This document shows, one piece after another, positions 3,573-56,238 of a DNA stretch of 64,000 bases. Made by a program: the position numbers and the translations under genes. Each line of letters opens with the position of its first letter. Position 1 is the stretch's first letter. A model generated the notes under the pieces. That model was given only the letters and a program-made list of their open reading frames with translations, had not been told where the DNA came from and did no database searches. Source of the stretch: Heterotrichella gracilis (lineage: Eukaryota > Sar > Xanthophyceae > Tribonematales > Xanthonemataceae). The DNA lies in NCBI GenBank assembly GCA_032358255.1, contig JAULBX010030928.1, positions 1 through 64,000 on the forward strand. Direction: 5' to 3'.

Positions 3573-5116
3573 CTGCAGAAGGTAGGTAGCTGCGCGGGAA
3601 AGTCAGGTTAGATGTGGATGCTTCTCCCACGTGGGCATGGGCATGGGCTGCATGGGGCAATATATATTGGGTGCTGGCGTGTGCAAACAACTGGGGGTAA
3701 GGGTGCACGGTGAGGGTGTGGGACTGGCTGACAGTGGCGCGGAGAGGTTAGCACTGTACCTGCCATGTCAAGACCAGTGCCAACCAACATGCCCTCAACC
3801 ATGTCATGTGAAGAAGACTGTTCTACTCTTGGGCTGCTTCCGAATTAAGATTGGCATAGCAGGCTGGAAGAAGACATCACAAGCTCAGCCAAATTACATG
3901 TCACCCCGTAACAAGTTGGCAGTCCAGCCGTGGTGTATCAGCACCATTTCAAACACTTCTGCCGTGAGCTGAGCGAGCGTGTCACACAGACAACGTTTCA
4001 CAGCTTGGCATGTACCCCAAGGGGCACCTGTGTCAACATGAACAAAAGCAGTAAGCAGGCTTTGACGTTTTGTCAGCAACATGGACGCACGCTGCATCAG
4101 TACCCCAGCTGCGTCACGAACACGCGTCACATCAGACGTCTATCAGGGTCGCCAGCCCGGTCATGCACCACAACCCAATACGAGTAAGACACCGCAATTC
4201 TGTTGCAGCTGCTTGACGCAGCACCCACGCTTGATAGTTGTCAGTTTCAAAAATGCATATGCATGCATGCAAAACATACCGTTTCATATGTGCCCGTTGA
4301 AACCTGACAGCCCGTGCTTCGTTCGGTTGGACGACAATTTATTTGTTCATGCTCTAATTGGTAGAAGTTTGTCGCACAGTGCACCTCATGCTCTCCTCGC
4401 GGGTTGTCCCCACGAACTGCTTCAACCGGGTTGGGCCAAGGCCGCCGCCTGAAAGTTGGTGAAGTGACTAGGATAGGGGTCCAAGTTGCATTAGGCTGTG
4501 CGACAGCACTTCTGCCTCTTCAGCCTGAAGTTCAGGTTCACGAACACACTAATAATGGCCTAGGTAGGTTTGGCCCAACCTTTGAATACCTGGTGCCTGT
4601 ACCCAACCTGCCAAACTAGCACCTAGCCCAGTGACCTGAGGTGGGCTTCGTTCAAAAACCTGTCACCAATAAGTTGCGTGCAGTTGATTCGGTTGATTTA
4701 GAGCTGAACTCTCACCGGTCCCCCAAGCTAACCTGCCTTTTGAAGATAGGCAAGTGCACTGTCGCCTCAATATATGTGCATGTGCGCGAGTTGGGACCCT
4801 CCTTGACATTAAAGCATCATTTATGTCAAGTCACACAGTGGAGCACCAGAGTGTGGTGGTGCATAAAACCAGGACATGATTTTCGTGGAAAGCATTTAAT
4901 TCGTAGGGAGCAAATAGGGCACTACCCGTGCATTGCTGTGAAGAAACTGTGCATCCATCACATTCTATACAACTGAAGCGCAAGCTGTAAATCATTTGTC
5001 TGTCACAGTGAGTAAGAGTGGGAAACAGTTCAGAGCTGATGGCAAAAAACAAAGCATCCCGGGACAACACACGTGCAGGTCATCGTCGCATCGTCAGGGA
5101 GTGTGCAGCACAAGAG
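3573..5116. other. Spacer; probably hides the 5' exon of the PC-esterase gene
   Basis: No gene can be supported on its own. The right end should be the 3' UTR of the GRDP-type gene. A minus-strand frame at 3894-4130 is a possible but unsupported 5' exon. It holds one copy of TGCATGCATGCAAAAC (about 4262), which recurs near 11608 and 22113. Confidence 0.35.
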
Positions 5117-22191: not shown

Positions 22192-29868
<7,677 letters not shown>

Positions 29869-39200: not shown

Positions 39201-40136
39201 CCCATTGGTTGGCGAGGGAGAACGAATCAGACTGGTGCGCTAGGGTGGCACCCGATGGACCTGCACAGATGGGCACGCAGTGCACAGCATGAGCAGCATG
39301 GGTGCCACACTCCGACCGCACATCAACCATACGGGTGGGGCTCCTTGACAGAGCAACGCACGCAGTGCCAAATCATGCATATATAGCCCCTTTGTCTGCG
39401 GGCATGCTCATCAGGCAGGCATTCTACAGTGCATGTGAATGCGCAGTCCCTAGCCAACCAACTGCCCCTCACCCACCTGCTCCGCTGCTGAACTCCTGTG
39501 CCCAGCGGCCCCCATCCCCTGGCCCCTGCCCCTGCCCCTGCCCCCCCTCCAGCAGCTCCCGGTACCGCTGGTCCTGCAGGGGTGCACGCCAGGTGGACAC
39601 ATCCAAGCCCTGAAGCAGGCTGTCCACCTGTTGCTGGTGTCTGCCTGGGGTCGCATCTGCACACAAAGGCAAGCTCACACACAAGCACACAAGCTCGCAC
39701 ACTGACAGGGGTAGTCATGGGGCACGCACACACGCACACACACTGGACAAGCACGTGGAGGGCAGCGCATATGCGGAAGTGGGTGGTGGGTGGTGGCAGC
39801 AAGGGAGGGCGTGGGAGTACGGGGCAAGTGTGCACCCAGGTGGCAGAGCTACATGCAAGTGTGTCTGGGCATGGCATTTTGGGACGGCGCCGGTTCGGTG
39901 GTCTCACCCGGGTACAGGTGGCGCGTAAGCACGTGCGCCCTGTTGCGCATCTTCTCCTGCTGCAGGGGGGTGAAGGGCTGCTGTGGGCCCCGCCATGCCC
40001 CTGCCACCTCTGCCTGGCTCGCGCTGCTGCTGACCAGGTGGTGGAAGAAGGATGCAACGGGGTTGCTGCTGCTGGCGGTGGAGCCGCCGGTGGGGGCACA
40101 GCCCTGACCCACCACCAGGTCTTTCAGCATGTCCAT
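36215..40136 (-). CDS. PEX5-like peroxisomal import receptor with divergent TPR half
   Basis: Nine exons give 679 residues: 40136-39908, 39656-39477, 39260-38544, 38348-38242, 38019-37927, 37649-37437, 37237-37052, 36779-36689, 36438-36215. The N terminus (MDMLKDLVVGQGCAP then Ser-rich SNP) resembles PEX5, including the single early Cys used for ubiquitin-driven recycling. The first half carries a series of W-x-x-x-F/Y motifs for PEX14/PEX13 binding: WAQEF, WAQDF, WALEY, WAEEF, WVVEY, WVAQY. The second half has TPR-like repeats (DPSTWHSLGMARLHMGEEET, GSHQGWALLAKCHALLG). The strongly conserved C-terminal PEX5 blocks around LWNKLGA and the NLGIS-like repeat are not visible. Either the cargo-binding TPRs have diverged far, or this is a PEX5 relative without normal PTS1 binding. 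Confidence 0.72.
38074..38127. mobile_element. 40-bp perfect hairpin with 7-bp flanking direct repeats (MITE-like relic)
   Basis: In intron 4 of the PEX5-like gene. Terminal inverted repeats CAGGGGTATACTAA (38081-38094) and TTAGTATACCCCTG (38107-38120) are perfect over 14 bases with a 12-base loop. Both sides are flanked by ACACAAA (38074-38080 and 38121-38127). Termini starting CAGGG and a 7-8 bp target duplication recall hAT-type DNA transposons, but the unit is far smaller than a normal MITE. It could be a solo-hairpin deletion product. Confidence 0.6.
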
Positions 40137-40662
40137 CACGCCTCAGGGGCTGTGGAGAAGTTATCTAGTGGTGCTGGAGCATGCATGCACATATGCATGC
40201 ATTCACCAATAGCAGGACTTCAAGCGCTGAGACAACCCCGCTGCATAGAGCAGTGCAGTGCGTTAATAATAGATAGAGAAACGCACGAGGATTCATGCTT
40301 TTCTACCTCAGCCACCCTTTCCCTTGCAACCAAGATTTGTGTCGTCAACACTGCACCTGGGTGCACATTACATATAGGGTATGTGGACCAGGGAAGTGAA
40401 CACTTTTATCCAAGGTGACGAGGTAGACATAGCGACAGGCATCGGTTGAGCCTGATTGTGTGTTGGCTACCAAAGACTGCAGAACACCCTGACTAAATTA
40501 TAGCCAGGTCAGCAAGAACACCCATTCGACATGCCCAACACATGGCAGTCATACCTCAGCAAAGCATCGGATGCTTGTTGATGTACGCAGACCATAGCAC
40601 AAACTGACGTGCTGTCTCTTAACTGCAACCCGGCGGGGCCTTAGTTTCAGCGGCTTGTTGCG
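40137..40662. promoter_or_regulatory. Shared spacer of divergent PEX5-like and UFL1 genes
   Basis: 526 bases between start codons must hold both promoters. Near its left edge are clustered TGCATGCA/ATATGCATGCAT palindromes (about 40179-40202). Confidence 0.45.
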
Positions 40663-43600
40663 ATGGACGACCTTTCGCTTGAGCAGCTGCAGGCGCAGCT
40701 CATGTCTGCGCAGGAGGAGAAGACAGTGGTGCGTAGAGGGGGAAAATGTGGATAGCAGGGTGTAAACGTATCGCTGTTGTTGCTGTGGGACGACGGGTGA
40801 ACAATGGTGTGCCCAATGCCATGCATGCATGTCACACATATGCATGCATTAGCCTATCTCCATGGGGAGAAGCAGTGTGCTCTTACAAAGGAGGTATAGC
40901 ACAGGACACTTGATGTTGTTATGGGTTGCACATGCAAGCCTTCGCCTGGTTTCATTTACGTCCGGGAGAAACAGTATCTTGCTCTTACCAAGCATTTACA
41001 GCACAGAACATTTTGTCGTGACCATTGGAAGTCCACTACTGTGGGTTGTATGGCGTTTGTCAACCACAACACCAACCTTGGTTGTACCATCAAATGCCTC
41101 CTTGGTCCATGGCACCAGATGACCTGCACACCCCCTTCCCCCCACTCCTTACCCCCCACACCCCACCCTGCACACACACCACCCCCCGCTCCCCCCAGGC
41201 CCGCCTGTCCGAGCGCAACGTGGTTGAGCTGGTGTCCAAGCTGCTGTCCCTGGGACTCATAGGCGAGGAGCTGCTGCACAGCGTGAACGGGAGGGAGTAC
41301 CTCACCGCGCGCCACCTGCGGGGGGAGGTGGCGCAGGCGCTGAGGCAGGCGGGGGGCAGGCTGCCGCTGGTGGGTGGGACGAGAGGCGCAGGCGGGAAAC
41401 ACACTAGGGTTATGGTAGCATATTCTGGGGCAGGCTGCGGCTGGTGGGTGGGGCGGGAGGCGCAGGGGGTGGCATGCGGGGAACACAGATGGATTCAGAC
41501 ACCATGTGGGCATGCAATGTGGGCACAATGCGAGCACGCCATCTTTTTGAAATGTTCAGATTAAAGTGTATTAATTAAAGTTACTGCAGGGCCTCACGCC
41601 ACGCCATGTGTACCCTCCATGTCCCGATGCTATGCCCACCCAGCCGGTTCCCACCAGGGAACGGCGCGCCATGTTCCCGTCACATATCCCCCCTCCTGTG
41701 CCAAGGAGCATTTGCATCCACCACGGGTGTCCCCGCCACCTGGGGGCGGTGCAGCATTTCCCATGCCTCCTCCATACCAGAGCCCTTCACCCCCCTGTGC
41801 AGGTTGAGCTGCCCGTGCTTCTGAATGTTGACCTGGTGCACTGCCAGCGCGCCGCAGAGGCGCTGATCGAGGAGGCCCAGGGGGACATGACGCTGGTGCA
41901 AGGGGAGGTCATCACGGGGGCGTACTACGACGCAATGGCAGGGGAGGTGGACGAGCTGCTGCAGGAGGCGGGGGTGCTGCCGCTAGGTGGGGGAGGAGTG
42001 GGGGAAAGGGGCAGATTGTTCCAGTGTCAATGCGCATTTGCACACACTTTTTCCATGCGGACCAAAGCAATGCAAGAAGGCGATGCATAGAGGGTCCTCC
42101 CACCAGCTACCCTAAATCCCTAAACCCGAAACCCTAAAACAGTCAAGCTGCGTGCAGTGCAAGAGCAGCACCCTGAGTGCAGGGGGCTCCTCACACCGAA
42201 TACTCTAGACCCTAAACCCCTGTGCAGCAGCACCCTGGATGCATGGTGGCTGTGCACGGCTGCCAGCGCCCCCTCACATCCCCCAGCATGCCAGACAACG
42301 CCCCCTGCTGCCACAACCATCTGCTGCCAGGCAATGCTCATCCTCCTCTCACCCCCACCTTCAGGTGACATTGCCCGCCGCTTCACACTGAGTGCGGAGC
42401 TTGTCCAGGGGACCATCAGTGCGCGCATGGGGAGCATCATACACGGACGCATGGAGGGGGGAGTCATCTTCACAGATGCACACATTGCGCGAATCAAGGT
42501 ACACGGGCGCATCACTGCACGCATGTCCTCATGGCAGCGGAGGGAGGAGGTCATGTGTGGCTTGACCATATACCTGTGCAAGGCAAGATGGCCGCCACCT
42601 AGCCATGCATCATGTGTACCACGTCGGTACTTCTTGGCTGCATTGTGGTTGCACGTGCCTGTTGTGCCCTGATACACGTTCTTGGTTGTGTGCCTGTGCC
42701 GTAACGCCTGGGGAGGCAAGCTCACACGGCAACTTGGCCTTACCACCCCGACCCTTGCAGGCATGCCTACGGGGCGCCCTGCGTGGTTCTGCCTCGCCCA
42801 CTGCTGTTGGCCCCCTCACAAAGGAGCTGGGGCTGGAGGTGAGCAGTGGGGGATGAGACCCTGAGGGGTCAAACAAGTAATAACACGAAAATACAAGTAA
42901 AATATATGTTACAAATGTATGCTGCTTTATTGTTGTCTTTTTATGTAAATTTTCTGGTCACTTACAGATAACAAGAAGAACAAAATAAAACACGGATAGC
43001 TTCAAATTTATTCCAGCAAGGAGGGGCTGTTGTTCATGGCCAGGGCACGTGCACGGGGCATGCAGGGTGCGCTTTGCAGCAGCGGGCGCACTTGATTCCT
43101 GAACCATGCTGTGTGTATGTACACCCCAACCGTGGATTCTGGCCTTTATGCCTACACTCACCCGTGGCTTGCACTGTCCGGAATACATTTGAGCAAAATA
43201 GCCAAAAATAACCCCCCCTGCTACATGTGTATGACTCTAGACCCTGCTGTGCCTGCAACCTCACACTGCCCTGCCCAGCGGGACACGTCTCCCCTCCCCT
43301 TTTATCCTATCCAACACATAACCCACACCCCCTTCCCAGGGACTGGGCCTCAGCAGCAGCATGCTCAGCGGGGTGGTGGAGGAGCTGGTGGCAGGGGGAG
43401 CAGTAAAAGGAAGCCTGAGAGGGGGGGGAGCCGCATGGACCCCAGCCACGTACTCTCGCTCCCAGCAGGCCGCGGTTGCTGCCTTCTACCGCCAGAACGG
43501 CTACATTGCATATGACACCGTGGCCAAGCTGGGCATCAGTGGGGGCCGGGCGCACATGGCGGGGGCGTTCCCCGGCGGTGTTGCGTGCGGCAGTTGCTAC

Positions 43601-46600
43601 GTGTCGCAGGAGGTGGTGGGGCAGGTGGATGCGCAGGCGGAGGAGGCGCTGGCAGGAGGGGGGTGGTGCGTGGTGGTGTGGGGGGAGTGAGGGGAGCAGA
43701 TGGGTACTTGTTTGCCCACAGAGTGCAATTTCGACGTAGATAAGCAGCACCGATGCTGCTACCATATTTACATATCTCACGCATGGCTTGTATGTGCTCA
43801 CATGCTGGTACTCTGTTGCTTGGATTGCTGTATGCATGCATACATGCCCTCGTGCTGCATGCTGCCACGTGGCTGAATGGTGCATGCATGCTTTCCTCGT
43901 GCGCATGCCTGCACCGCTCACCCGTCCCCTCCTCCCTCCCCTTACCCTCCAGGGCTGACCTACAGCAGTTTATGCCCACACTGCTCACCACAGAGGATGC
44001 AGCCACCCTGCTAGAACAGTGCCCGGCAGTGCAGGCGGCGCAGCGGAACCCCGATGGCCCGCGTGGGGGTGCGCTGCTGTCCGCCACCTGCCTGGTCAGC
44101 GCATGCGTGCTGCGTGAGGCTGGGGAAAGGTCGGCTGCAGCGGCGCGGGGGGCGGCGGCAGAGGTGATGGAGCGGCGGGTGCGGGGGGCGAGGGCGGGGA
44201 AGGCAGAGGTTCAGGACGGTAGGCGCAGTTATTTTGGCATGCCAGGGTTGTGCACATGCAGCTGCGCCAATATAATGCCTTGCGCTTTAGAGCCCTGCAT
44301 TGCGCCCTGCATTGCGCCCTGCATTGCGCATTAGTGCCGATCTAATGTGGGTAAGTGCAACTTGTGATCCTGCCCTTGCTAGTCAATGGTGGTGCAGCCA
44401 GGTACTACCCTAGGTGATGCCTGTGCATAATGTGTGCTTAGGAGGCAGCACATACGAGGTGTCAAACTGCTCTTGCATAGCTCTGCCGTACATCTGATAT
44501 TCCTCTGACCCACGTGATGTCCCCTAGATGCCCCAGGCCCCAGCGGGAAGGGGGTTAAGCCAGGTGGTGCAGTAGAAGGGGAGGACAGCGACGATGAGTG
44601 GGGTGACCGGAAGGGCAAGGGCAAGAAGAAGGGGAAAAGAACGGGGAAGGCGCCTGCAGCCAAAGCAAAGGCTCCGCCCGCCAAGGTGAGTAGGGTTTTA
44701 GGGCGACAAGGATTGCGCTCCCCCTGGGCACCTGCAAAAGTCTGTGGGATTCACCATGGTACATACAGAAATAATGCAAAATCCGCCTTGCATGAAATCG
44801 TACAGGCGGTTATGACCTGCAATGTGGCACTGAGAGAAACGGCAGCAGCATGCATCAACATGTGGTGTCTGCATACACGCATGTGGTGACAATACCCTTG
44901 CATTTGTGCTGCGTTGCAGGGCGGCAAGGGCGCGCCTGCCTCCTCGCCTGATCCCACACCTGGCGTGCTCACCCCCGGCGGCCTCTCCCTGCTTGTGTGC
45001 CAGTGGTACCCTGACATGGAGGGGGCAGGGGAAGAGGGGGGGCTGGCGGAGGCCATGGCAGAGCAGGTGGGGGTGGGTGGGGGGTGGGGGTGGGGGGCAG
45101 TGGTATGTTAGGAAGGTTGTGTGCATTCAAAGAGGTGATCAACAGCAGTATACATACTGGGATGGGTTGGTTCGACAGGGTGCGACGTTGGTGCGACTTT
45201 GGTGCGATTAGAACCGCTGCCCTTTGGGAGTCCTGTGTCCTTTCCGGGCTGTGGCAGGCCTTCACTGTCCTTGTCGTAGTCGTGGGTGTTGTTTTGAAAC
45301 ATAATGCACTGTGCAAGTAGTTGTCTATATTACTATGGGACTGTCGGAAGATTTGGCTTGGGACATGGTGCACCTGCAAGCGGTATCATGCACCACCAGA
45401 TACACCACCATCACCATGCTCCAGCACCATTCCAGCGACATGCACCCACATCACCAGCACACCATTACGCATCCGAAATTCCCTTGTCATTTCCACTGCC
45501 ATGTCATCTTTCTCCACCTGAACAAGCATTGAATGCATGCAATACCCCCTCATCCACAGCTTTTGCCTGGAGCTGTTGCTGTGTACGAGCGCACTCTGGC
45601 CGCTGCTTTCAAGGCGGGTGCTGAGGCAAGGAGGCAGCGCAGGGAGGAGGCAGGGGGACAGCTGGCAAAGGCGGCGGAGAGGTGGGTCGAGGGGGGTTGG
45701 TTTGTGGGAGTGTGTAAGAGGGGAGGGACATGTTGGTCCAGGGATATTCGTGCGTATGAGCTTGTATGCGTCGTGCATGTTTCAAGCAATGCTGTGCGGT
45801 GGTATTGGTCGTGCGTGCATATCACTGGCCTAGAAACACAGCCACTCCTTTTCCAAGCCTGTCTACCATGTGGCCGTTGGCTGCCGTATTGTACACGCAT
45901 GCCATGTATGCATGAGGGGGTACGCTGGTGGCAGATACAAATCCCACCATCTTGTGCACGCACTGTCAACATGACATGCACCATTTGATGGTATGATATG
46001 CAATTCACCCCATTGGCCAGCCCTCCCCCTCACCCATGCCATGCCCCCCATAGCGCCTGTCCTACTACCCACCCACTGTTGCTGCACCCAGGTTCCAGCT
46101 GTACCTCAAGGGGTGTGAGGAGTTCACAGGGGATGAGGCCACTTGCTCTCAGCTGCAGCGCCACCTGCTGCGCACCACTGGCGGGGAGGCGCTGCACTGG
46201 GGGCTCAGGGTCATGGTGAGGGGAGGGTGATTAGTTAACTCATTAGTTACATGCATTTTGCCGGATGATCCCGGCAGTACAGCCAGACCAGGAATCAGCC
46301 TTGCACTTGGGGCTGAGGGACATAGTGAGGGGAGGGGGTGGTGGGTAGTTGGTTCATTACTTAAGTGCATACTCCGGAAGGTTGCGGCTGTGCAGCCAGG
46401 TCAGCAATCCGCCTTGCACAAGCTTGGGGCCACTCGGGTCTATCCTGGCATTGCGTGTACCATTATAGAAGGGGAGGGGGTGGCAGGCGTGGGTGGGTGC
46501 ACAGGGGGTTAATGGCCACCTGGCAACATGTTCATGTGCTTCAGCAGTAGCGTGTGTCTCCTGACTCACCGACAGCACATACACACGCCGTGAGCAGCCC

Positions 46601-48197
46601 ACTGGTACCCACAGTGTACAGGGATACCCCAGGGGTGTTGCCAACCCAAGTGGGACAATGCCAGTCACCATCGTGTTGTACAAGTAGCTTTAGAGTAAAA
46701 ATCGGCCTAAAGCCCTTTGACCCCCATTGAAAACATGGGCCATGCCTTGCTGTCCTTCCTTTCAACGTAACACCTCCGCTTCCCCCCCTGCAGGAGGTGG
46801 ACCTGGCCGGAGAGGGTGAGGGTGAGGCGGCGCCAGGTGGCGACCAGCCGCCAGCCTACACGCCATTCACTCCGGCGGAGCAGAAGGCGCTGCTGCAGCG
46901 GCTGCCCGCAGATATCAAGCCAGCTGCGCAGGCAATGGTGGAGGCGGCGGGAGGGGCAAGTGCACAGGTGAGGGGGCAATGTGTGTGGTTGCTTGGATTC
47001 AAAAGAATCAAGGAACAGGTATACTTGGCGCGTTGCTATGGGGTTGGGCCAGGCAATGTGTGGCAATGTATGGACGAATGAGCATGGTGTTGATTAACGT
47101 TACATGCAGATGGTTGACTGTGGTCTACCCTTGGCTCCACAGCCATTTGCCAAATTCCCCACAGGTAATAGTAGCTGACCCAACCAGCAGCCACATTTCT
47201 CACTATGCCCTTCTCATCTCTCCACATACACACATACACCTGCTCCCCCAGGCCTATTATTCTTCCCTTGAGGCTGCCAGTGAGGCGTGCGGGGTGCGGC
47301 TCAGGCGGCTGGACCGCAAGGCGGAGCGGGCGGCGGTGTCTGTGCACAGGCGGGCACTGGAGGAGGCGCTGGATGCGGAGGGAGAGCCGGCTGCTGCGCT
47401 GGCACTGGCGGTGCAGCTCATGGCAGTGCAGGTGGGTGGGGGGGTGCAAAGTCGTGTGCATTTGTTGATAAAAAAGCATTAGAAAAGACATATTGTTTCT
47501 AATAATGTCAATTACTATACTACTTAAAATTATAATAATTATTTTTCAATAATAATCTTGATTTTTTATCAAGCTAATTATATATACAGCCAAAAGTTAT
47601 TGTAATGCGCTACAGCTGGCCACGCATGCAGGCTAGTTGGTTAATTTTGCCAGCACACAGGTAAAACATTCAGAGAAATTTGTTGTGGCATTTTACTGGG
47701 CGTCGACCGCGCACAGCACCCCTTTGAATAGCCAGAAGGCGCTGTTGATTTGGATGCCACGCCGTATATTGAGAAGCGCAGCCATTGTGGTTCCGGCAGC
47801 ATCCATGTCTGCCACTCGAACCCCTCCCACCACTCACACCCTGTCCCCTGTGCAGGTGCTTGGTCGCGCAGTGAGTGTGCCTGGCCGCTGCCTGTCGGGG
47901 GTTATTGAGCGGGTGCGGGCGGGGGTGGGGGAGGACGCGCACGCGGTGGTGGCCGGGTACCACGGGAGGGTGGTGGAGGCGCTGCGGGCGGAGGGCGGTG
48001 GGGGTGCTGACAGGCTGAGGGAGGGGCTGGTGGCAGACTTACCAGCTCTCAAGGCGGCTGTGGGGGTGGGGGTGGCTGTGGGTGGGGGTGGTGAAGGCAA
48101 GGCACCACCACCAACCGTTACTGTGGCTGAAGGAGATGGGGAGGGTGTCGGTGGCGAATCAGATGGTGCGATGGCAGCTGCGCAACATGCTCCATGA
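40663..48197 (+). CDS. UFL1: E3 UFM1-protein ligase 1 (UFL1)
   Basis: Scaffold ligase that transfers UFM1 to targets such as 60S ribosomes at the ER. Fourteen exons give 823 residues (human 794): 40663-40728, 41199-41369, 41803-41986, 42365-42498, 42761-42838, 43340-43665, 43953-44218, 44528-44685, 44920-45066, 45560-45681, 46092-46215, 46794-46967, 47252-47431, 47856-48197. Family blocks in order: RLSERNVVELVSKL, VNGREYLTARHLRGEV, LLNVDLVHC, EGGVIFTDAHIARIK, SPTAVGPLTKELGLE, FYRQNGYIAYDTVAKLGI, LTTEDAATLL, and a Lys-rich acidic linker (exon 8). The exon 6 donor was set so that a Trp conserved in UFL1 is rebuilt across the junction. The last exon is recopied twice downstream. Confidence 0.93.
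41350..41488 (+). repeat. Duplicated 3' end of UFL1 exon 2 with its splice donor
   Basis: The end of exon 2 plus donor and early intron (GGCTGCCGCTGGTGGGTGGG, from about 41353) recurs at about 41427 as GGCTGCGGCTGGTGGGTGGG. Both copies continue with a GGCGCAGG stretch and a GGGAAACACA or GGGGAACACA stretch. The second copy sits inside intron 2 and carries a potential second GTGGGT donor. Confidence 0.65.
42110..42222 (+). repeat. Interstitial telomere-like repeats in UFL1 intron 3
   Basis: CCCTAAA-type units (CCCTAAATCCCTAAACCC, then CCCTAAAAC, and CCCTAAACCCC near 42210). They share the plant-type telomere motif with 29507-29552. Confidence 0.55.
42870..43010. other. AT-rich island in UFL1 intron 5
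   Basis: About 140 AT-rich bases at the donor side of a 500-base intron. No terminal repeats or frame are seen. Confidence 0.35.
44291..44326 (+). repeat. Three exact 12-bp tandem units in UFL1 intron 7
   Basis: GCCCTGCATTGC repeated three times without change, followed by a partial unit. Identical copies suggest recent slippage. Confidence 0.85.
46194..46425 (+). repeat. Tandem ~110-bp duplication of the UFL1 exon 11 end and donor
   Basis: Unit 1 begins in exon 11 (GCACTGGGGGCTCAGGGTCA) and crosses the donor GTGAGG. Unit 2 begins at 46303 (GCACTTGGGGCTGAGGGACA) and keeps AGTGAGGGGAGGG. Both continue with a CATTA stretch, TGCAT, a CCGG stretch, CAGCCAG and a CGCCTT or AGCCTT end. A third start (GCACAAGCTTGGGG) follows. 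Unit 2 is diverged and lies wholly in the intron. Confidence 0.65.
47465..47610. other. AT-rich island in UFL1 intron 13
   Basis: Very AT-rich for about 140 bases (TTATAATAATTATTTTTC and similar), in sharp contrast to the flanks. It is a candidate organelle-derived insertion or a remnant of a mobile element. Confidence 0.4.
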
Positions 48198-49093
48198 AGG
48201 CACCAACACTGTATGTGGCGGGTCCTAGGCATTGCGCCGTAGTGTGGCCTGCACAGTATGATCGGCTCTGTAAAATTCATGCTACTGCGTGGCATGGCTA
48301 GGTGACAATGATGTTGAAGTCGAGCACTCGGCATGCGCTGATGAGTACTGGAGGTCAAGGAGGCCCTGAGAGTTTCCCGGGGGCCATCCTCCGAGGAAGT
48401 TCCTGCACAAAGCATACCCCAGGTTGGACGCTCAGGCAAAAAAAACAGGCTAGGGTCTTGGCGCATGTGCAGGCAGACCACCAGGCCTGCCTAAGAGCGT
48501 GTAAGTTCCTGTGAAAGCTACGATATGCTTGCATGGCGAACCTGAGGGCTTCTCCGCTCAACCGAAACCCCAGGCTAGGGTATGTGCATCTGCATGCATG
48601 CGTTTTTATGCATGCATTTTTATGCATGCATGGGTTTCTCTTTGCCCATAAAGTTAGAGTGCACTCGTGAAGGTTGGGCTACGCCAGATTATTTGGAGGT
48701 GCTCGAGGGAGCAGGTGAGGGTTTGGGGAGGAGTCAAGTTTGTCTTTTCTGGTGAGGCATGCAAACTCACGAGCACCCAGCGAGCACCCAGCACCATACA
48801 AGGTTCCCTTCTGGAAATGTCGAGGTAATGGTGCATGTGGGCGGTAGGCGGTTGTGCCTGGGCAGAGGCTCAGCCTGGACTACAGTTGCAGTCTCTGAGC
48901 TCTTGCAAACATTTCCTATAAGACCATAAACGCCTACCCGTATTGGCTGCGTTGTGGGTAATGACCTGGCTGCCTGTACCTTGTAGGCTGTCGCTTGTAC
49001 AACTGACGAGTTTTATCAGTGGTACTCACAGGAGCCCTTGGTGCAGTGCAGTCGCCACACCCCCCAGGCGCCACACCAAAGACTACAGTCACC
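48198..49093. other. Spacer of repeat unit 1 (UFL1 3' flank to gene A)
   Basis: Holds the UFL1 3' UTR and the upstream region of gene A. Much of 48300-48830 is matched by 50200-50640, including CACAAAGCATACCC, CCTGCCTAAGAGCGTGTA, GCTAGGGTATGTGCAT and AAGGTTCCCTTCT. It contains dense TGCATGCA palindromes (48592-48632). A possible acceptor (CTCACAG before 49035) could join an upstream exon to gene A. Confidence 0.5.
48269..48273 (+). promoter_or_regulatory. Candidate TGTAA poly(A) signal of UFL1
   Basis: TGTAA 72 bases past the UFL1 stop. The duplicated copy downstream keeps it (CTCTGTAACG, 50154-50158). Confidence 0.5.
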
Positions 49094-49765
49094 ATGTCCA
49101 GCAACGTTAACGTCCACGAAGAACTGCGCAGTGCAAGAGATGAACTGCCGCAGGCTGTGGAGAATGTCAGAGGGTCTGCTGCAATAGCTGCATCAACATC
49201 TGGTGTCCAAGAGCTGGCCTCAAGTGCTGTGGTCGAAAGGGAAGATGGCCCAGTTGTTCCCAGTTGGAACCAACCTCCTCGCAAGCTTCGTGTTAAGCTT
49301 GGCACCAAGCCACTGCCCTTTCAACCAGCTGAAGGCAGCTTCGTATGGCAAATGCTACGCGAACTGGACAACCTGAGGCATCGTATTGACCTGGGCAACG
49401 TGTCACAAGTCCGCAAAGTGGCCTCACAAATTCTGGAGGCAACCGCCAGCACACAAGGGGGAGCTTTTGGGCCCAGCTTGGACAGCCATGTCATGAGGCG
49501 AGGGCTTGTGGAAGACACCCGCTACCTGGAGCTTGCAGGCAAACTCAACACAACCGCGGATGCCTTGATGTCCAAGGCAGACAAGATGCGCACAAGGAAC
49601 ACAGCACAAGGTTACTCGGCCAGCTTGCAAGTGCTTGATGAGGATGTGGCAAACGCAAGGGCACTGATATCTCCTGGCGTGCGGCTGCTGTGCCCTGAAG
49701 AGTGCCAGACAATTGACGACTATGAGGTCGCCAAGGAGGTATTTGCCTACAAATTTGGGTGGTGA
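49094..49765 (+). CDS. Unknown protein, tandem paralogue A
   Basis: An uninterrupted 223-residue frame with no intron, unusual here. I do not recognise the family. It looks mostly helical, soluble and charged, with no signal peptide or membrane segment. The C-terminal half (about residues 120-223) is strongly shared with the frame at 51230-51931: AFGPSL, LAGKLNTTADALMS, KMRTR, EDVANAR, SPGVRLLCPEECQTID and an EVFA-x-x-FG end. The N-terminal half is shared more weakly (AVENVR against AVEQVR; SWNQP against DWNQP; LGTKP against VGTRP). Maintenance of two open, diverged frames suggests a real protein. The start is the first ATG; an upstream exon is possible. Confidence 0.6.
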   Translation: MSSNVNVHEELRSARDELPQAVENVRGSAAIAASTSGVQELASSAVVEREDGPVVPSWNQPPRKLRVKLGTKPLPFQPAEGSFVWQMLRELDNLRHRIDLGNVSQVRKVASQILEATASTQGGAFGPSLDSHVMRRGLVEDTRYLELAGKLNTTADALMSKADKMRTRNTAQGYSASLQVLDEDVANARALISPGVRLLCPEECQTIDDYEVAKEVFAYKFGW

Positions 49766-49795
49766 ACCACTAAACCAGAAGCAGCAGCGTATGGA

Positions 49796-50165
49796 GGAAG
49801 GAAGGGTGGGGAGGCGCTGCGGGCTGCGGGTGGCGGGGGTGCTGACAAGCTGAGGGAGGGGCTGGTGGCAGACCTTCCGGCTCTCAAGGCGGCTGTGGGT
49901 GAGAGTGGTGACGGCAAGGCGCAATCGCCACGTGGTGCACCCGTGACTGGGGCCCCATGGGGGTGAAGGAGAAGGTGAGGGTGGCGATGGCGAATCAGGT
50001 GGAGATGGGGCAGCTGCGCAACATGCTGCATGAAAGCACCAACAGTGTAGGTGGTGGGTCCTAAGCATCATGCCGAAGCGTGGCCTGCACAATACTATTC
50101 ACATCAGTGACGAACGCGAAACGTTTTTTTGGGCAATCTTCGAAGTCGGGCTCTGTAACGTACGT
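49796..50165 (+). pseudogene. Second copy of the UFL1 last exon and 3' flank
   Basis: From the GGAAGGGTGG start onward it follows UFL1 exon 14 from about 47964: GGAGGCGCTGCGGGC, GGGGTGCTGACA, GGCTGGTGGCAGAC, TCTCAAGGCGGCTGTGGG, GGCGAATCAG, CAGCTGCGCAACATGCT, then the 3' flank GGGTCCTA and GTGGCCTGCACA. It has small insertions and deletions, lacks the rest of the gene, and cannot encode UFL1 alone. It lies directly after gene A; GCAGCAGCGTATGGAGGAAG marks the junction. Confidence 0.75.
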
Positions 50166-51229
50166 CACCAGGGTGCTACTGGGCATGCGTGGCTTGGCTA
50201 GGGGACAATTATGTTGAACTCGAGTACTTGCCATGCGTGCGTTGATGAGTACTCGAGGTCAAAGAGGCCATGAGAGGTCCCCCGATGCCATTCTCCTTCC
50301 TACACAAAGCATACCCTAGGCTAGGATGCTGGCGCTTGAGCAAGCAGACCACCATGCCTGCCTAAGAGCGTGTACGTTACTGTAACAGCTAAGATGAATG
50401 ACGAACACTAGGGCTTCTGAGCCTAAGCAAAACCCCAGGCTAGGGTATGTGCATATATGCATGCATGCATTTTTATGTTGTAAAAAGTGGGTTCCTATTT
50501 GCCCCTTTGCCCCTAAAGGTAGAGTACACTTGTGAAGTGGGCTACGCCAGACACTAGTTTACGGTGCTCGAGAGAGGGGGAGGCAGGCAAACTCACGAGC
50601 ACCCAGTCAGCACCTGCCAAGGTTCCCTTCTCAATAGAATGTACATGGGCCCACGAGTGAAGTATCGAGGCTGCCTTCAGCTGGGGTTTCAACTGCCACT
50701 GGCTTAGTGCCAACCTTACGAGGAGACTGGTTCCCACTGGGACCAGCTGCGCCATCTTCCGTGTACGCCACAGCACTTGAGGCTTGCCTGTTGTGGATGC
50801 AGCCTCTGACATGCTCCAGAGCCTTGTTGTCGTTCCTCTCCAGCACTGCGCACTTCTTCGTGAACGCTGCTCGACATGTTGACTGTAGTCTTGGTGTGGC
50901 GCCCCTAGGGAGTGGCGCCCACTGCTCCAAGGGCTCATGTGAGTAGCGCTGGCAGGAACAAGCAGCAGCCTGCAGGGGACCAGCAGCCAGACCATCACCC
51001 CACAACACAACCAATGCAGGTAGGTGGTTACGATCTCGTGAGCATGTTTCGGGCTTCTTTCCCTCGTTTTGAAAAACAAGCCATTGCTTCAAGCTGGTGA
51101 CAGGAGCATACTGTTTCTTGCTTGTTGATGTCTGTGACAACTTTTGAGGCCTGCCACCTGCCCATATGCATATATGCCAAACCTGCCAGGAGCCTTCACT
51201 ATCCTCACCTGCATCATTTTGCTGTGTAG
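50166..51229. other. Spacer of repeat unit 2
   Basis: The left part (50200-50640) is collinear with unit 1 at 48300-48830. The middle (about 50660-50955) is an inverted fragment of the gene A/B family, listed separately. The right part leads into gene B and has no match I could see in unit 1. Confidence 0.5.
50660..50955 (-). pseudogene. Inverted 5' fragment of the gene A/B family
   Basis: Read on the minus strand, it matches the start of gene A and its leader: GAGCCCTTGG, GGCGCCACACC, GACTACAGTC, CACGAAGAA, GTGCGCAGTG, GCCTCAAGTGCTGTGG, GAAGATGG, TTGGCACTAAGCCA and AGCTGAAGGCAGCCT. It lacks the conserved C-terminal half of the family. It is a partial copy in opposite orientation between two direct copies, so it arose by a separate inversion or insertion. 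Confidence 0.65.
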
Positions 51230-51931
51230 ATGACCTCCTTGACAGTCTACGCGACCAACAAGGTGTACCAGGAAAAGCGCGGTCCAGGGGAAGAAATGCA
51301 ACAGGCTGTGGAGCAGGTCCGACAGTCTGCTGCAGCAACATTCGGCAACCCACACTTGACTGTCAACGCTGCGGTGTACACCGCTGATGGCGCAGCCGTG
51401 CCTGACTGGAACCAGCCTGGCGGCAAGGTTGGCACCAGGCCTTTGGCGCTCCACACGCAAGCTCCAGGCAGCCTCCTGGAGCAACTTGCAAGCAGCAGCA
51501 GGTCCCTGCAAGCTGACCAGCAGCAAACAAATCAGGAGCTCAGGCGTGACCTTGACAGGATCATTGTGACACGCATCCGTAACGTGGCTTGCCAAATCTT
51601 GGAGGCAACCACCAGCGCGCAAGGGGGGGCTTTTGGGCCCAGCTTGAATAGCAAGGTCATCAAGACAGCGTCCATGGAAAGCAACCGCTACCAGGAGCTT
51701 GCAGGCAAACTCAACACAACCGCGGACGCCTTGATGTCCAGGGCAAACAAGATGCGCACAAGGTATACCGCAGAAGGTCACCCGGGCAACTTGCAAGTGC
51801 TTGCTGAGGATGTTGCCAACGCAAGGGAAATGATGTCTCCTGGCGTGCGGCTGCTGTGCCCCGAGGAGTGCCAGACCATCGATGAGTACGAGGTCACTAG
51901 GGAGGTGTTCGCACTCGAGTTTGGGGTGTGA
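51230..51931 (+). CDS. Unknown protein, tandem paralogue B
   Basis: An uninterrupted 233-residue frame, the paralogue of the frame at 49094-49765 and likewise without introns. I do not recognise the family. Shared C-terminal blocks are QELAGKLNTTADALMSRANK, LQVLAEDVANAR, SPGVRLLCPEECQTID and EVFALEFG. The middle has a Gln/Arg-rich stretch, probably helical (LQADQQQTNQELRRDLDR), with QILEATTSAQGGAFGPSL at its end. No signal peptide, membrane segment or catalytic motif is visible. The first ATG is used. It is directly followed by a third copy of the UFL1 last exon. Confidence 0.6.
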   Translation: MTSLTVYATNKVYQEKRGPGEEMQQAVEQVRQSAAATFGNPHLTVNAAVYTADGAAVPDWNQPGGKVGTRPLALHTQAPGSLLEQLASSSRSLQADQQQTNQELRRDLDRIIVTRIRNVACQILEATTSAQGGAFGPSLNSKVIKTASMESNRYQELAGKLNTTADALMSRANKMRTRYTAEGHPGNLQVLAEDVANAREMMSPGVRLLCPEECQTIDEYEVTREVFALEFGV

Positions 51932-51949
51932 GGTCTTTCACCAGCTGCA

Positions 51950-52205
51950 GCAGCGTATGGAGGAAGGGTGGTGGAGGCGCTGCGGGCTCAGGGTGGTGGG
52001 GGTGCTGACTCAGTGACAAGCTGAAGGAGGGGCTGGTGGCAGACCTTCCAGCTCTCAAGGCGACTGTGTGGTGGGGGTGGCTGCGGGTGGGTTTGGTAAA
52101 GGCAAGCACCAATAGCTGCGCAACATGCTGCATGGAAGCCTTAGGCACCGAGAGTGTACGTGATTGGCACTAGCCAGTGCGTCGTGGCCCGCACAGTATG
52201 ATGTC
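51950..52205 (+). pseudogene. Third, shorter copy of the UFL1 last exon
   Basis: It starts at the same GCAGCAGCGTATGGAGGAAG junction as copy two and continues with GTGGTGGAGGCGCTGCGGGC, GGGGGTGCTGAC, GGCTGGTGGCAGACCTTCCA, CTCAAGGCGACTG and CTGCGCAACATGCTGCATG. Internal deletions are present. After GTGGCCCGCACAGTATGAT the match ends, which marks the right border of the amplified region. Confidence 0.7.
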
Positions 52206-52565
52206 ATCATTGAACGAGACAATTATAATTGGGCAATTCTCCACATATATCTTGCCCTGAAGATTCCAACATAGATGACATTGTGGATACATGACACATA
52301 GCGGCCATCGTGATAGGTTTTTACAGCTCTAGAGCCCAACTAGGCTAACTAGGCCAGCCTGTAGGCTGTACGAATAGCTACAGTTCAATTGAGTTGCACC
52401 ATGATTGCTACAACTGCGCGGAGACTGAGTGAACTTGTGAAGCTGGCAAATAAGTTAAACATATGAAGCCTTCAAGGTCCAGTCGTCAATGACGTGGCAT
52501 GTGCACAGTGTACGAAGCACAGTATCCGCCATTATTGAGCGGCTCTGCCAAGCTTTAGCAAGTGG
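52206..52565. other. Spacer at the right border of the tandem array
   Basis: About 360 bases, AT-richer, with no gene. TTACA at 52321-52325 (TGTAA on the minus strand) is a possible poly(A) signal for the PLP enzyme gene on the right. Confidence 0.35.
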
Positions 52566-55500
52566 TTACCACTCCAAGTGCCACAGGCTTGATACCATGG
52601 TGGCAACTGTCCATGGCATGCCCTGTTCATCCCTATTGCGCCCCCGCTGCATCTCCACCTGCTCCAGTATGAGACTGGCCGCCTGCTCCACCTCCCCGCG
52701 CTTGCTGTACCTGCCCAGAGAGAGGCGCAGCGTACCCACGCCATACTCAACAGGCACCTGCATGAAGCGGGGGTATAAACAAATGGCCGTATACTGCTCA
52801 CCTTCCTGAGGAGTCCACTGGATTAGTGTGTTCTGCAATTCATTTTACCGGCTGTTTTGTTTTCTTGGTAAATTACAGGAAGTTTAGATTATGACATGTG
52901 AACAAACAGAAAGGAAAATGCGCCCGGTCTCATTGACTTGAATTATGAAAGACATAATATACCAGTACATGGTGCGTAAAACCCCACTTATCCATGACCA
53001 GCATCCAGCATTGCTCGCATCCCACCATGCCTCCATGCCTCTCGCACACTGGGTAACTCACCTGCATAGCCTCCAGCACTGCCGACACTCTTGGCCCTCC
53101 CCCCGAGTGGCAGGCTGCCCCCGCTGATGCTGCCAGGCGTGTGGACAGGGCAGCCAGCAGCGAGGATGAGTCCACACCCTTGAACCCTATGCTTAGGGTA
53201 TTGGGCAGGCGGAGCGCAGGGTCTGGCGGGCCATGCACCATCACCTCGCCCTGCAAGGCCACAGGCGTAAATGCAGATCACAAGGGGGGAAACCCTAGCA
53301 TATGAAAGGTGGGATGCCATGCACGCCCCAGGAAAGACGTGGACACATGGATGGGGTTAATTTACCATGTCTTTGCTGCACCATGGAACAGGTTTGAATT
53401 CCTTCAGTCCCTGTTCTCAAATATTACAGCCTCCGGCCACATCATCCCCACCCACCTCTGGCAGCGCCCCCACCAGCTGTTGCCTCAGCTCCTCCCTCAG
53501 CGCCGCACACCTTCCCCCCACCTCCCCACCATGCTCCACAGCCCACTGGGCAGCCGCCCCCAGCCCGGCAATGAGCGCCACGCTCTCCGTGCCACCACGC
53601 ATGCCAGACTCCTGCACGTGGCGGTGCTATGTGAACAAGCATGCGGTGCAATGCATATGCCACAGTGGAGGCTGGATGGTGATGGTTGCACACTAGGGCG
53701 TGCAGCATACAGCGTGGGTCACATTCGGCTGCAGGGTTGCATCATGCATACACCAAGGTTAATACAACAATATAAGATCCTATCATTACACTCGATTGAT
53801 ACTCAGATATTGGCCACACCAAACACACGTGCTCCCCTTACACCCGACCCAGCTACATCTGCAGAGCTGGCAGCGCACCTGGCCCCCACCATGCAGCAGC
53901 TTGTCTATCGTCACCCCCTGGCGAATGTACAGCGCCGCCACCCCCTTGGGTGCACCGAATTTGTGCCCCACCACCGTCAGCATGTCCACCCCCAGGGCTG
54001 CCACGTCAACTGCCACCTGGCAGGAAAAGAGAATGGAACAGGGATGTCATCAGCAAGTGGCCCAATTGACATGCACCCTATGGCTGCTGCTGCATATACT
54101 TGTGCATAGAAGGTGGGGGTGATGGTGGGTTGCCTGCGGCACTGGGTGCAATGGGCCAGCTACCATGTGTCCCTCACAGCCTTCACATGCAATTGGCCTC
54201 TGTCTGTGCACCGCCTTGCTGTCTTCAGTGCACACATGAGTCCATGGCAGCAGTTGTGTCCCGCAGCAGTATTATAAGACTAAAGCCCTGCTCGTGCTGC
54301 TCTTGGTCGTGGCCAGGCCAGTCCCCACCGCTGGCCCCACCCCTGGCTGTGGCCATACCTGTCCCCACCCCTCCTGTGTCCCTCCTGTGCTCACCTACCT
54401 ACCTTGCCTATGCTCTGCGCCGCATCACAGTGGAACAGGATGCCGCGATCACGAGCCAGACCTGCAGCGTGGGGTGGCCAACGCTCACATGATGCAACAT
54501 TACCGCCAATCATCAAACACACAGGAGCACCCCATATTGACTGGCAGACAGTGTATGCATTGCGCATCATTGGAGTATGCAGCACTCAAGCATCTGGCAC
54601 TGAAGGGACGACGATGGGCTTTCAACCGCAATTTCAGACAGCAGCCAATCGTCAGTGTCACCAGGTCAGCAGTGCACCATTATTTATGCACTCACTGCAG
54701 GCGCAAGTCCTCACTCGCTCACTCGCTCGCTCGCTCACTCACTCACTTGTGACTACCCCGACCCACCTGCCATCTCCTGAATTGGCTGCAGGCTGCCCAC
54801 CTCGTTGTTTGAGTGCATGATGGTGACCAGGCGCGTGGCAGGGGTGAGAGCGGCAGCCAGGTGGAAGGGGTTGACACGGCCATGGGGGTCAACAGACAGG
54901 AGGCTGAAGGTGGCCAGCCCCTGTGGGTGTGAAGGGGAGGGGGCAATGTCGCACGCTGTGGCAGAAATCATTGCAGTGTGCCACAAGCCCACGGGCTGCA
55001 CAGTTCATGCAATAGAGTGCACTACACCAACCGCATGAAGTGCACACTATCCAGATTGCAACCCACATGAAAACGTGGTCAAGTTCTAGATTTATGTCCA
55101 AGTTCTAGCTGCACATTGCAAGGCAGCTTGCTGACTCAGCACCTCACATACCCTGTCCCTCAGGTAGGCCAGGCACTCCAGCACTGCGGGGTGCTCAATC
55201 ACACTGCTCACAACGTGGGGCACAAGGCCTGGCTCAGCCGCCCGCGCCGCCATGACCGCCCCCGTGATTGCCCAGTTGTCGGCCTCAGTGCCGCATGAGG
55301 TGAAAAAAACCTCGGCAGGGCTGCAGTTGATGAGGGCTGCCAGGTGGCGGCGGGCGGCGCACACGGCGTCGCGACTCTGGGAGAGAAATGGGGGGTGGGA
55401 CACGTGGGGCACATGCTCACAAGGAAGGTGGTTCTGCCTAATGGCTTGCCTCCATGTAGTATGTGTTCGTGTTCACATGCAAGTTTCTTGCTTTCTTACT

Positions 55501-56238
55501 GCGAAAACGATGTGCCACATATGCTATGGCCACTGGTGTATTTTTTGCGTGCATTGGTGCGGTGTGGTGTGGTGCGATGCGGTGGCTGCTTACCGGTGCA
55601 CCATACGCATGGCTGCTGGAAGGATTGCTACAATGCGAGGGAACACATGCGTTTGTAAGTCAAAGAGGAAGATTGGCAGCACCTAATTTACAGCTGGGTA
55701 CAGTGTCAGCAACTCTCTGCATGCATGAATGTGAGCGCAGGCAGTTGGGATGTAGCCACACAGGGTGCCATACACAAAATTAAGTACAGTTTTGCAGACT
55801 TTGAAACCTCAGCGGTGCAGCCAGGTGCTTGCAGACGATCCTCAATACACGCAGCAGCAGCAGACACACGTGTGCAGATCCAGCCCACAAAACCCGCACT
55901 CACCCAAAATGCTCTCTGAGGAAGGGTTGCATGGCATCAGCCACCTGTACAAATAAATTCCTTGATATGTTACCCTGCCGTGCAACCAAGTTCAGACCAA
56001 GCAGGCAGGGCTGGGTGCGGCGCACTACAAGTGCAGCCACGTTACAACACACTAACGATTGCAAGGTGGTCCGAAGCATGACTTGACTGTTGGCTGGAGC
56101 TGTGGATGCAGACCATGTGGGGTTGTTGGTGGTGCCACAGCCTACCTCGGGGTACACAGGTGTGGTGGCATTGTAGTCGAGGTACATGCACGCATTGGAG
56201 GCAAATGGGGAGGAGGAGGAAGCAATCGGGCTGTCCAT
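52566..56238 (-). CDS. Cysteine desulfurase / selenocysteine lyase-like PLP enzyme
   Basis: Class V aminotransferase-fold enzyme that takes S (or Se) from Cys (or Sec). Ten exons give 426 residues: 56238-56146, 55944-55904, 55627-55594, 55376-55152, 54920-54767, 54461-54403, 54016-53879, 53611-53456, 53250-53062, 52757-52566. Visible: MYLDYNATTPVYPE; GNPSSSHAYG (a 34-base exon needed to complete the block); FTSCGTEADNWAI; MHSNNEVGSLQP; HCDAAQSIGK; the PLP lysine in VVGHKFGAPKG; RGGTESV; and the catalytic Cys in SAGAACHSGG. AACHS resembles animal selenocysteine lyase rather than classical NifS (ACTS). The frame is open upstream to an ATG at 56481, so an N-terminal targeting extension is possible. 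Confidence 0.88.
54711..54747. repeat. CACTCGCT-type microsatellite in intron 5 of the PLP enzyme gene
   Basis: Alternating CACT and CGCT tetranucleotide units over about 37 bases, just below the donor of exon 5. Simple slippage repeat. Confidence 0.8.

Follow-up and report, generated by a model that had tools for sequence, protein, structure and literature searches.

Two uninterrupted open reading frames lie close together in the window analysed here, a stretch of 64,000 nucleotides from Heterotrichella gracilis, and they raise the question of whether they are genes, to which family they would belong and what has shaped their evolution. Both frames had been reported in the initial annotation, at 223 and 233 amino acids, and both were recovered intact on the plus strand:

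G1, 49094-49765, plus strand: single open frame of 223 aa, family member
G2, 51230-51931, plus strand: single open frame of 233 aa, family member

The best explanation, held tentatively and at slightly less than even confidence, is that G1 and G2 belong to an orphan, apparently lineage-specific family that evolves by birth and death and perhaps has a role in recognition or conflict.

Homology between G1 and G2 at the DNA level starts at about 51260, and the first codons and 5′ region of G2 are unlike those of G1. In 1000 first-order Markov resamplings of positions 48900-52000, the longest ATG-initiated frame reached at least 233 aa in 2.8% of cases and the second-longest at least 223 aa in 0.2%. 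Frame length is weak evidence for either gene, because the same stretch also contains two other ATG-initiated frames (236 and 215 aa) that necessarily lie on the minus strand. Stronger evidence comes from the match of the sense frames to proteins encoded on other contigs, described below.

The family across the genome

When the genome (68.5 Mb) was searched iteratively, family members came to light at 14 loci on 11 contigs, a count that is a lower bound. The two tandem paralogues of the initial annotation are a true pair but too narrow a view: the family has 14 or more loci, and half of these are interrupted. With G1 as tblastn query only G1 and G2 were found. The C-terminal half of G2 gave a weak match on contig C297 (E 0.013), which falls within an open frame that reads for 209 aa from an ATG, and the C297 protein as query found C246, C663, C771, C243 and C365 together with both window genes. 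Further queries added C89 (two loci), C437 (two, inverted), C50 and C166. The weakest counted member is C243 (E 1.2e-4 and 5.2e-4), which as query matched only itself. Kept outside the count were C13:237521 (E 0.26), two short fragments on C365 and an inverted fragment within the window (G3inv, see below).

Frames are open at seven of the 14 loci (G1, G2, C297, C246, C437a, C437b and C50) and interrupted at the other seven (C771, C243, C365, C663, C89a, C89b and C166). Stops occur in C771, C243 and C365, and frame changes, some of which could be introns, were seen by eye in C663, C771, C89a and C89b; C166, known from match rows alone, is matched in two frames. At C50 (L057:4281-5402, minus strand) a single frame of 374 aa contains the family module twice, in nearly identical copies produced by a recent internal duplication; the gene model is uncertain, with no ATG in the first module. 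The family is thus scattered through this genome, where it keeps duplicating, breaking and changing, behaviour that is also known from some genes engaged in evolutionary conflict.

Membership was judged by the C-terminal module, using profiles built without the sequences under test, and both G1 and G2 were recognised. A profile built from six members that lie on other contigs, not wholly independent since these members came from searches starting with G2, matched G1 at E 6.5e-15 and G2 at 1.2e-13; the next of the 1381 window frames, taken from both strands, scored 0.72, and only the G1 and G2 sense frames matched. A profile of C297 and C246 alone still reached the two window genes at E 2.9e-5 and 1.2e-4. 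In a tree of 11 modules, comprising nine single-module loci and both C50 modules and leaving out C771, C243, C89b and C166, the G1/G2 pair (0.999) joins C297, C246 and C663 with a support of 0.92. The family is real, and the libraries searched do not contain it. That the two frames are chance or antisense products of GC-rich duplicated DNA, as the long minus-strand frames in the same stretch might suggest, is very improbable given the homology of the sense frames to proteins from other contigs (E about 1e-14) and a start codon common to G1 and the inverted fragment; as accidents of sequence the frames seem unlikely.

The coding part of family members appears to lie in a single exon. The claim that G1 and G2 lack introns holds for the coding frames, and there may be a 5′ intron: visual inspection showed acceptor-like sites upstream of G2 and of the exon of C297 and C246.

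Protein properties and searches for known relatives

Members share a C-terminal module of about 115 residues that ends in LD..v......C..EC.vi..YE.ik..F. The proteins of five members are acidic (pI 4.8-5.7), measure 22.7-25.4 kDa, contain one to three cysteines each and are without a transmembrane-like stretch. Two AlphaFold models were helical and too poor to use (pLDDT 38.9 and 46.6); the proteins are probably small, soluble and all-helical.

The absence of a recognisable family, as first noted, was borne out by searches of Pfam, PHROGs, NCBIfam, PADLOC and the PDB, none of which gave a convincing match. PHROGs held nothing for G1 or G2, PADLOC gave no match, and the PDB gave none for the G1/G2 pair; NCBIfam offered Rad50 (0.036) and SLATT_1 (0.11) for G1/G2, both far below cut-off. 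In Pfam, G1/G2 met only the MADF/Myb-SANT-like profile (PF10545), below cut-off; it was rejected, being found in G2 alone of 11 members and at 13.6 bits against a cut-off of 22 (E 0.088). Alignment A2 comprises 11 members or pieces and excludes C89b, C437b and C166; its sequences matched eight Pfam families at E up to 10, each in one member, and these were treated as chance (the best, NEL, at 0.029), as were the PDB matches of the same alignment to 4wpx (0.032) and 1knz (0.65).

A short motif also invited comparison with HEPN domain proteins, whose motif is RNxxxH. RNQGMH in C297 and RNQAVH in C246 occupy matching places and C365 has a similar string at an offset position, whereas the motif is altered in G1, G2 and C663. 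No HEPN profile was among the eight Pfam families of the 11 members (E up to 10) and PADLOC gave none, and a HEPN domain was dropped on the grounds of the missing profile match and the lack of conservation of RNxxxH across members.

A text search of the literature, in which sequence is not searchable, found no description of the family. Bacterial, archaeal, viral and phage relatives were likewise not found with the queries used, in scans by short exact peptides or tblastn that are sensitive to close relatives only. The family is a candidate for one that is, apparently, lineage-specific.

One further identity to be weighed is that of cargo or accessory genes which a transposable element or an endogenous virus has carried around the genome. 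The family's spread over 11 contigs, its poverty in introns and the interruption of half its loci would all fit such an origin, as would a 2.0-kb unit common to two dispersed members:

C297/C246 pair, L029:4005-6010 and L030 (reverse): dispersed pair in which the flanks are similar but the coding exon has diverged strongly

Against this, DNA comparison found just two copies of the unit in the genome, and the C297 copy, the one inspected, shows no terminal inverted repeats. The C297 protein had no relative in genome_contigs or viral_contigs, the G1/G2 alignment had none in viral_contigs, and G1 had none among phages. By Pfam, no transposase, reverse transcriptase or integrase was encoded in 20 flanking frames, drawn from the 120 listed frames of at least 140 aa and from eight of 11 loci; these frames gave F-box, weak LRR and PGM1 matches. 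The matches that the initial annotation had weighed against its own reading were thus not seen, with no convincing known family in the libraries searched and no mobile-element family in the 20 frames. Carriage by a mobile element is considered improbable. The F-box-like domain (L034:6122-6913, plus strand; E 1.1e-6, above cut-off) lies near the family member on C365.

Duplication of the locus together with the UFL1 3′ end

The two window genes are set in a series of repeats derived in part from their upstream neighbour, the gene for E3 UFM1-protein ligase 1 (UFL1):

UFL1, 41193-48197, plus strand: tail donor, with exons identified within this range
T1+F1, 47964-48812, plus strand: first copy of the repeat, made up of the tail of the last UFL1 exon and the 3′ flank
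T2+F2, 49800-50631, plus strand: the UFL1 tail and flank for a second time, immediately 3′ of G1
G3inv, 50666-51036, minus strand: 5′ part of a third G copy, in inverted orientation
T3, 51962-52202, plus strand: third, partial copy of the UFL1 tail, 3′ of G2

Matches to PF09743 and PF25041 above curated cut-offs fall between 41193 and 48002, and the last UFL1 frame ends at 48197. The main part of T2+F2 is 68% identical to the first copy, gaps included, and its flank part 78.7% identical over 526 aligned nt with 12 indels, while T3 has an 8-nt insertion and more gaps, leaving the UFL1 frame broken. G3inv comprises an upstream region, ATG and N-terminal part, including the G1 start codon and about 170 nt 5′ of it; it is frameshifted, is matched by tblastn as two pieces in different frames and is without the C-terminal half. 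Its identity to 48921-49343 is 70% with gaps, and that of a slightly wider pair of stretches is 76% over 403 ungapped sites.

The 3′ end of UFL1 has therefore been carried along in a duplicated segment, and a copy of its tail follows each G gene; the suggestion that the genes are cargo of a duplicating segment proved well founded, in that the segment was duplicated jointly with the UFL1 3′ end. The simplest history would be repeated tandem duplication of one G gene along with the 3′ end of UFL1, followed by inversion and deletions. The UFL1-derived sequence 3′ of each G may act as its 3′ untranslated region. TGTAA, a green-algal polyadenylation signal, is present 3′ of UFL1 in its flank and again in the copy of that flank after G1 (48269, 50154 and others), but none was found from the end of G2 to 52800. 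Because TGTAA follows G1 and is missing after G2, a UFL1-derived 3′ end seems plausible for the former and doubtful for the latter. The locus thereby suggests a route, segmental duplication, by which a gene may gain the 3′ end of a neighbour.

The relationship to UFL1 (PF09743, PF25041) is confined to this arrangement: its tail and 3′ flank belong to the duplicated G segment, but only the sequence 3′ of each G is derived from it. The possibility that G1 and G2 are retroposed UFL1 copies was dropped, as tblastn against the window (E up to 10) gave no convincing similarity between them and UFL1 exons. Rfam had no match in positions 40000-56000 of the window.

Divergence and selection in the G1/G2 pair

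G1 and G2 are 59% identical in protein overall and 71% over the last 118 codons, and dN (NG86) is 0.164 in the C-terminal half and 0.483 in the N-terminal half, in agreement with the original description of a strongly conserved C-terminal and a looser N-terminal half. The corresponding dS values are 0.391 and 0.67, with an overall dN of 0.291 and dS of 0.509. The dN/dS check that had been proposed for the two frames gave 0.57 overall and 0.42 for the C-terminal half.

Neutral expectations were obtained from 2000 simulations in which the same numbers of changes were placed at random. A stop was gained in 99% of these, and in 84% for the C-terminal half alone, a comparison that is inflated in that the frames had been picked for being open. 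Amino-acid changes numbered 89 against a neutral mean of 107.8, with none of the 2000 simulations as low; the C-terminal half has 34 against 41.5 and the N-terminal half 55 against 63.3 (P 0.0085). The earlier argument that frames open despite divergence suggest selection on the protein is supported for this pair by the stops and the larger numbers of amino-acid changes in the neutral runs and by the dN/dS values.

Comparison with the UFL1-derived flank, where 112 of 526 sites differ, separates the two halves. In the N-terminal half 72 of 196 first and second positions differ (P 3e-5, Fisher), and third positions are raised as well (39/98). The C-terminal half exceeds the flank neither at first and second positions (36/236; P 0.06) nor at third positions (29/118). 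The raised third positions of the N-terminal half, together with its fewer-than-neutral amino-acid changes, count against the best explanation.

These results bear on a second account, in which the family is an orphan under relaxed, mostly neutral evolution with little present function, its copies decaying while gene conversion homogenises flanks and some exon blocks, and exon divergence reflects age or exchange. Interruption of half the loci fits this account, as do dN/dS values of 0.57-0.90 among the pairs. It sits poorly with G1 and G2, which are open, have fewer amino-acid changes than expected and show zero indels in the last 357 nt of their coding alignment against the 12 in the aligned flank. 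It is a serious possibility, judged to have appreciably less than an even chance.

Divergence of coding exons and flanks in other pairs

The C297/C246 pair, which lies outside the window, gives the most striking result. Upstream of the exon are two blocks, one of 228 nt (91.2% identity) and one of 317 nt (97.8%), separated by 42 gap-rich nt at 79%; within the exon identity falls to 71% over 661 nt, with proteins about 52% identical, and 3′ of the exon it returns to 89.8% over 630 nt with 62 gap columns. There may be an exon within the 5′ block as well, a point against the best explanation. The drop extends from near an acceptor-like CAG to the stop codon, boundaries that count against the largely neutral account. 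In 100-column windows identity is 0.60-0.80 in the exon and 0.77-1.00 in the flanks, and some flank windows (0.77-0.84) overlap the better exon windows, which counts against a faster exon.

First and second positions differ at 120 of 412 sites, against 7/317 in the 5′ block and 64/630 in the 3′ flank (Fisher 3e-25 and 1e-14), and a residue is changed in 98 of 206 codons. Third positions are as diverged (60/206), so the whole exon exceeds the flanks, not only its amino-acid sites, and positive selection is not proven because all three positions are raised. Among codons that encode the same residue in both copies, 8 of 54 fourfold sites differ, a level similar to that of the 3′ flank (P 0.26) and higher than that of the 5′ block (P 0.0004). 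By NG86, dN is 0.356 and dS 0.411 (dN/dS 0.87). The exon is thus more diverged than its main flanks at all positions with dN/dS below 1; the equal divergence of codon positions and an exon dS above that of the flanks would also be expected of the largely neutral family.

A third pair has a different pattern:

C437 pair, L060:1286-2014 (minus strand) and 3855-4577 (plus strand): inverted family members, 85% identical

Its members are near-identical over the N-terminal coding part and differ in variable blocks further on, a mosaic that favours neutral evolution with conversion; the clustering of their amino-acid changes is counted in favour of the best explanation. The coding sequence differs at 56 of 720 sites against 10/244 and 22/100 in the flanks, with no excess over flanks (dN 0.080, dS 0.089), which counts against that explanation. 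In all three pairs NG86 dN/dS is below 1 (G1/G2 0.57, C297/C246 0.87, C437 0.90), a further point against the best explanation. The family data do not distinguish between selection, whether positive or balancing, exchange of exons within flanks that are homogenised, and a relaxation of constraint.

Possible role and parallels

The preferred reading, a birth-and-death family with a possible role in recognition or conflict, draws on two sets of observations. Duplication has been tandem, inverted and dispersed, and about half the loci are interrupted; and the coding exon has changed more than its flanks in C297/C246 and in the N-terminal half of G1/G2, with no such excess in the C437 pair or the C-terminal half of G1/G2. 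From this evolutionary pattern alone, the proteins would bind something that is itself variable. Their role would most likely be intracellular recognition or decoy in a host-parasite conflict, or self or mate recognition, which is offered as a best guess.

In MHC genes, exon diversity is kept by selection with homogenised flanks. By analogy, diversifying or balancing selection acting over a long time may have maintained diversity in the coding exon while the flanks were homogenised, and the UFL1-linked pair would then be one cluster of an unrecognised variable recognition system. The equal divergence of the three codon positions in C297/C246 fits such selection as well as exon exchange; this more specific proposal is considered unlikely.

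A parallel for the preferred reading is found in the trappin multigene families. In armadillo, cattle and pig, their coding regions are reported to have evolved much faster than the introns, flanks and non-coding exons of the same genes, and positive selection was reported for the pig paralogues (PMC2831891). The trappins are mammalian host-defence peptides, whereas the G family has larger proteins with one to three cysteines in the five members considered and positive selection is not proven in it; no sequence relationship is expected.

Diverged coding exons within near-identical flanks can flag conflict or recognition genes, and families of this kind are easily missed because they are absent from profile libraries. 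If intact members are expressed and vary between strains, the family would be a candidate variable recognition system in a little-studied eukaryote.

Elsewhere in the window, an Exostosin GT47 domain is encoded at 757-1845 on the minus strand, and HA2_N and OB_NTP_bind matches, as in DEAH-type helicases, lie at 26650-29086 on the plus strand.
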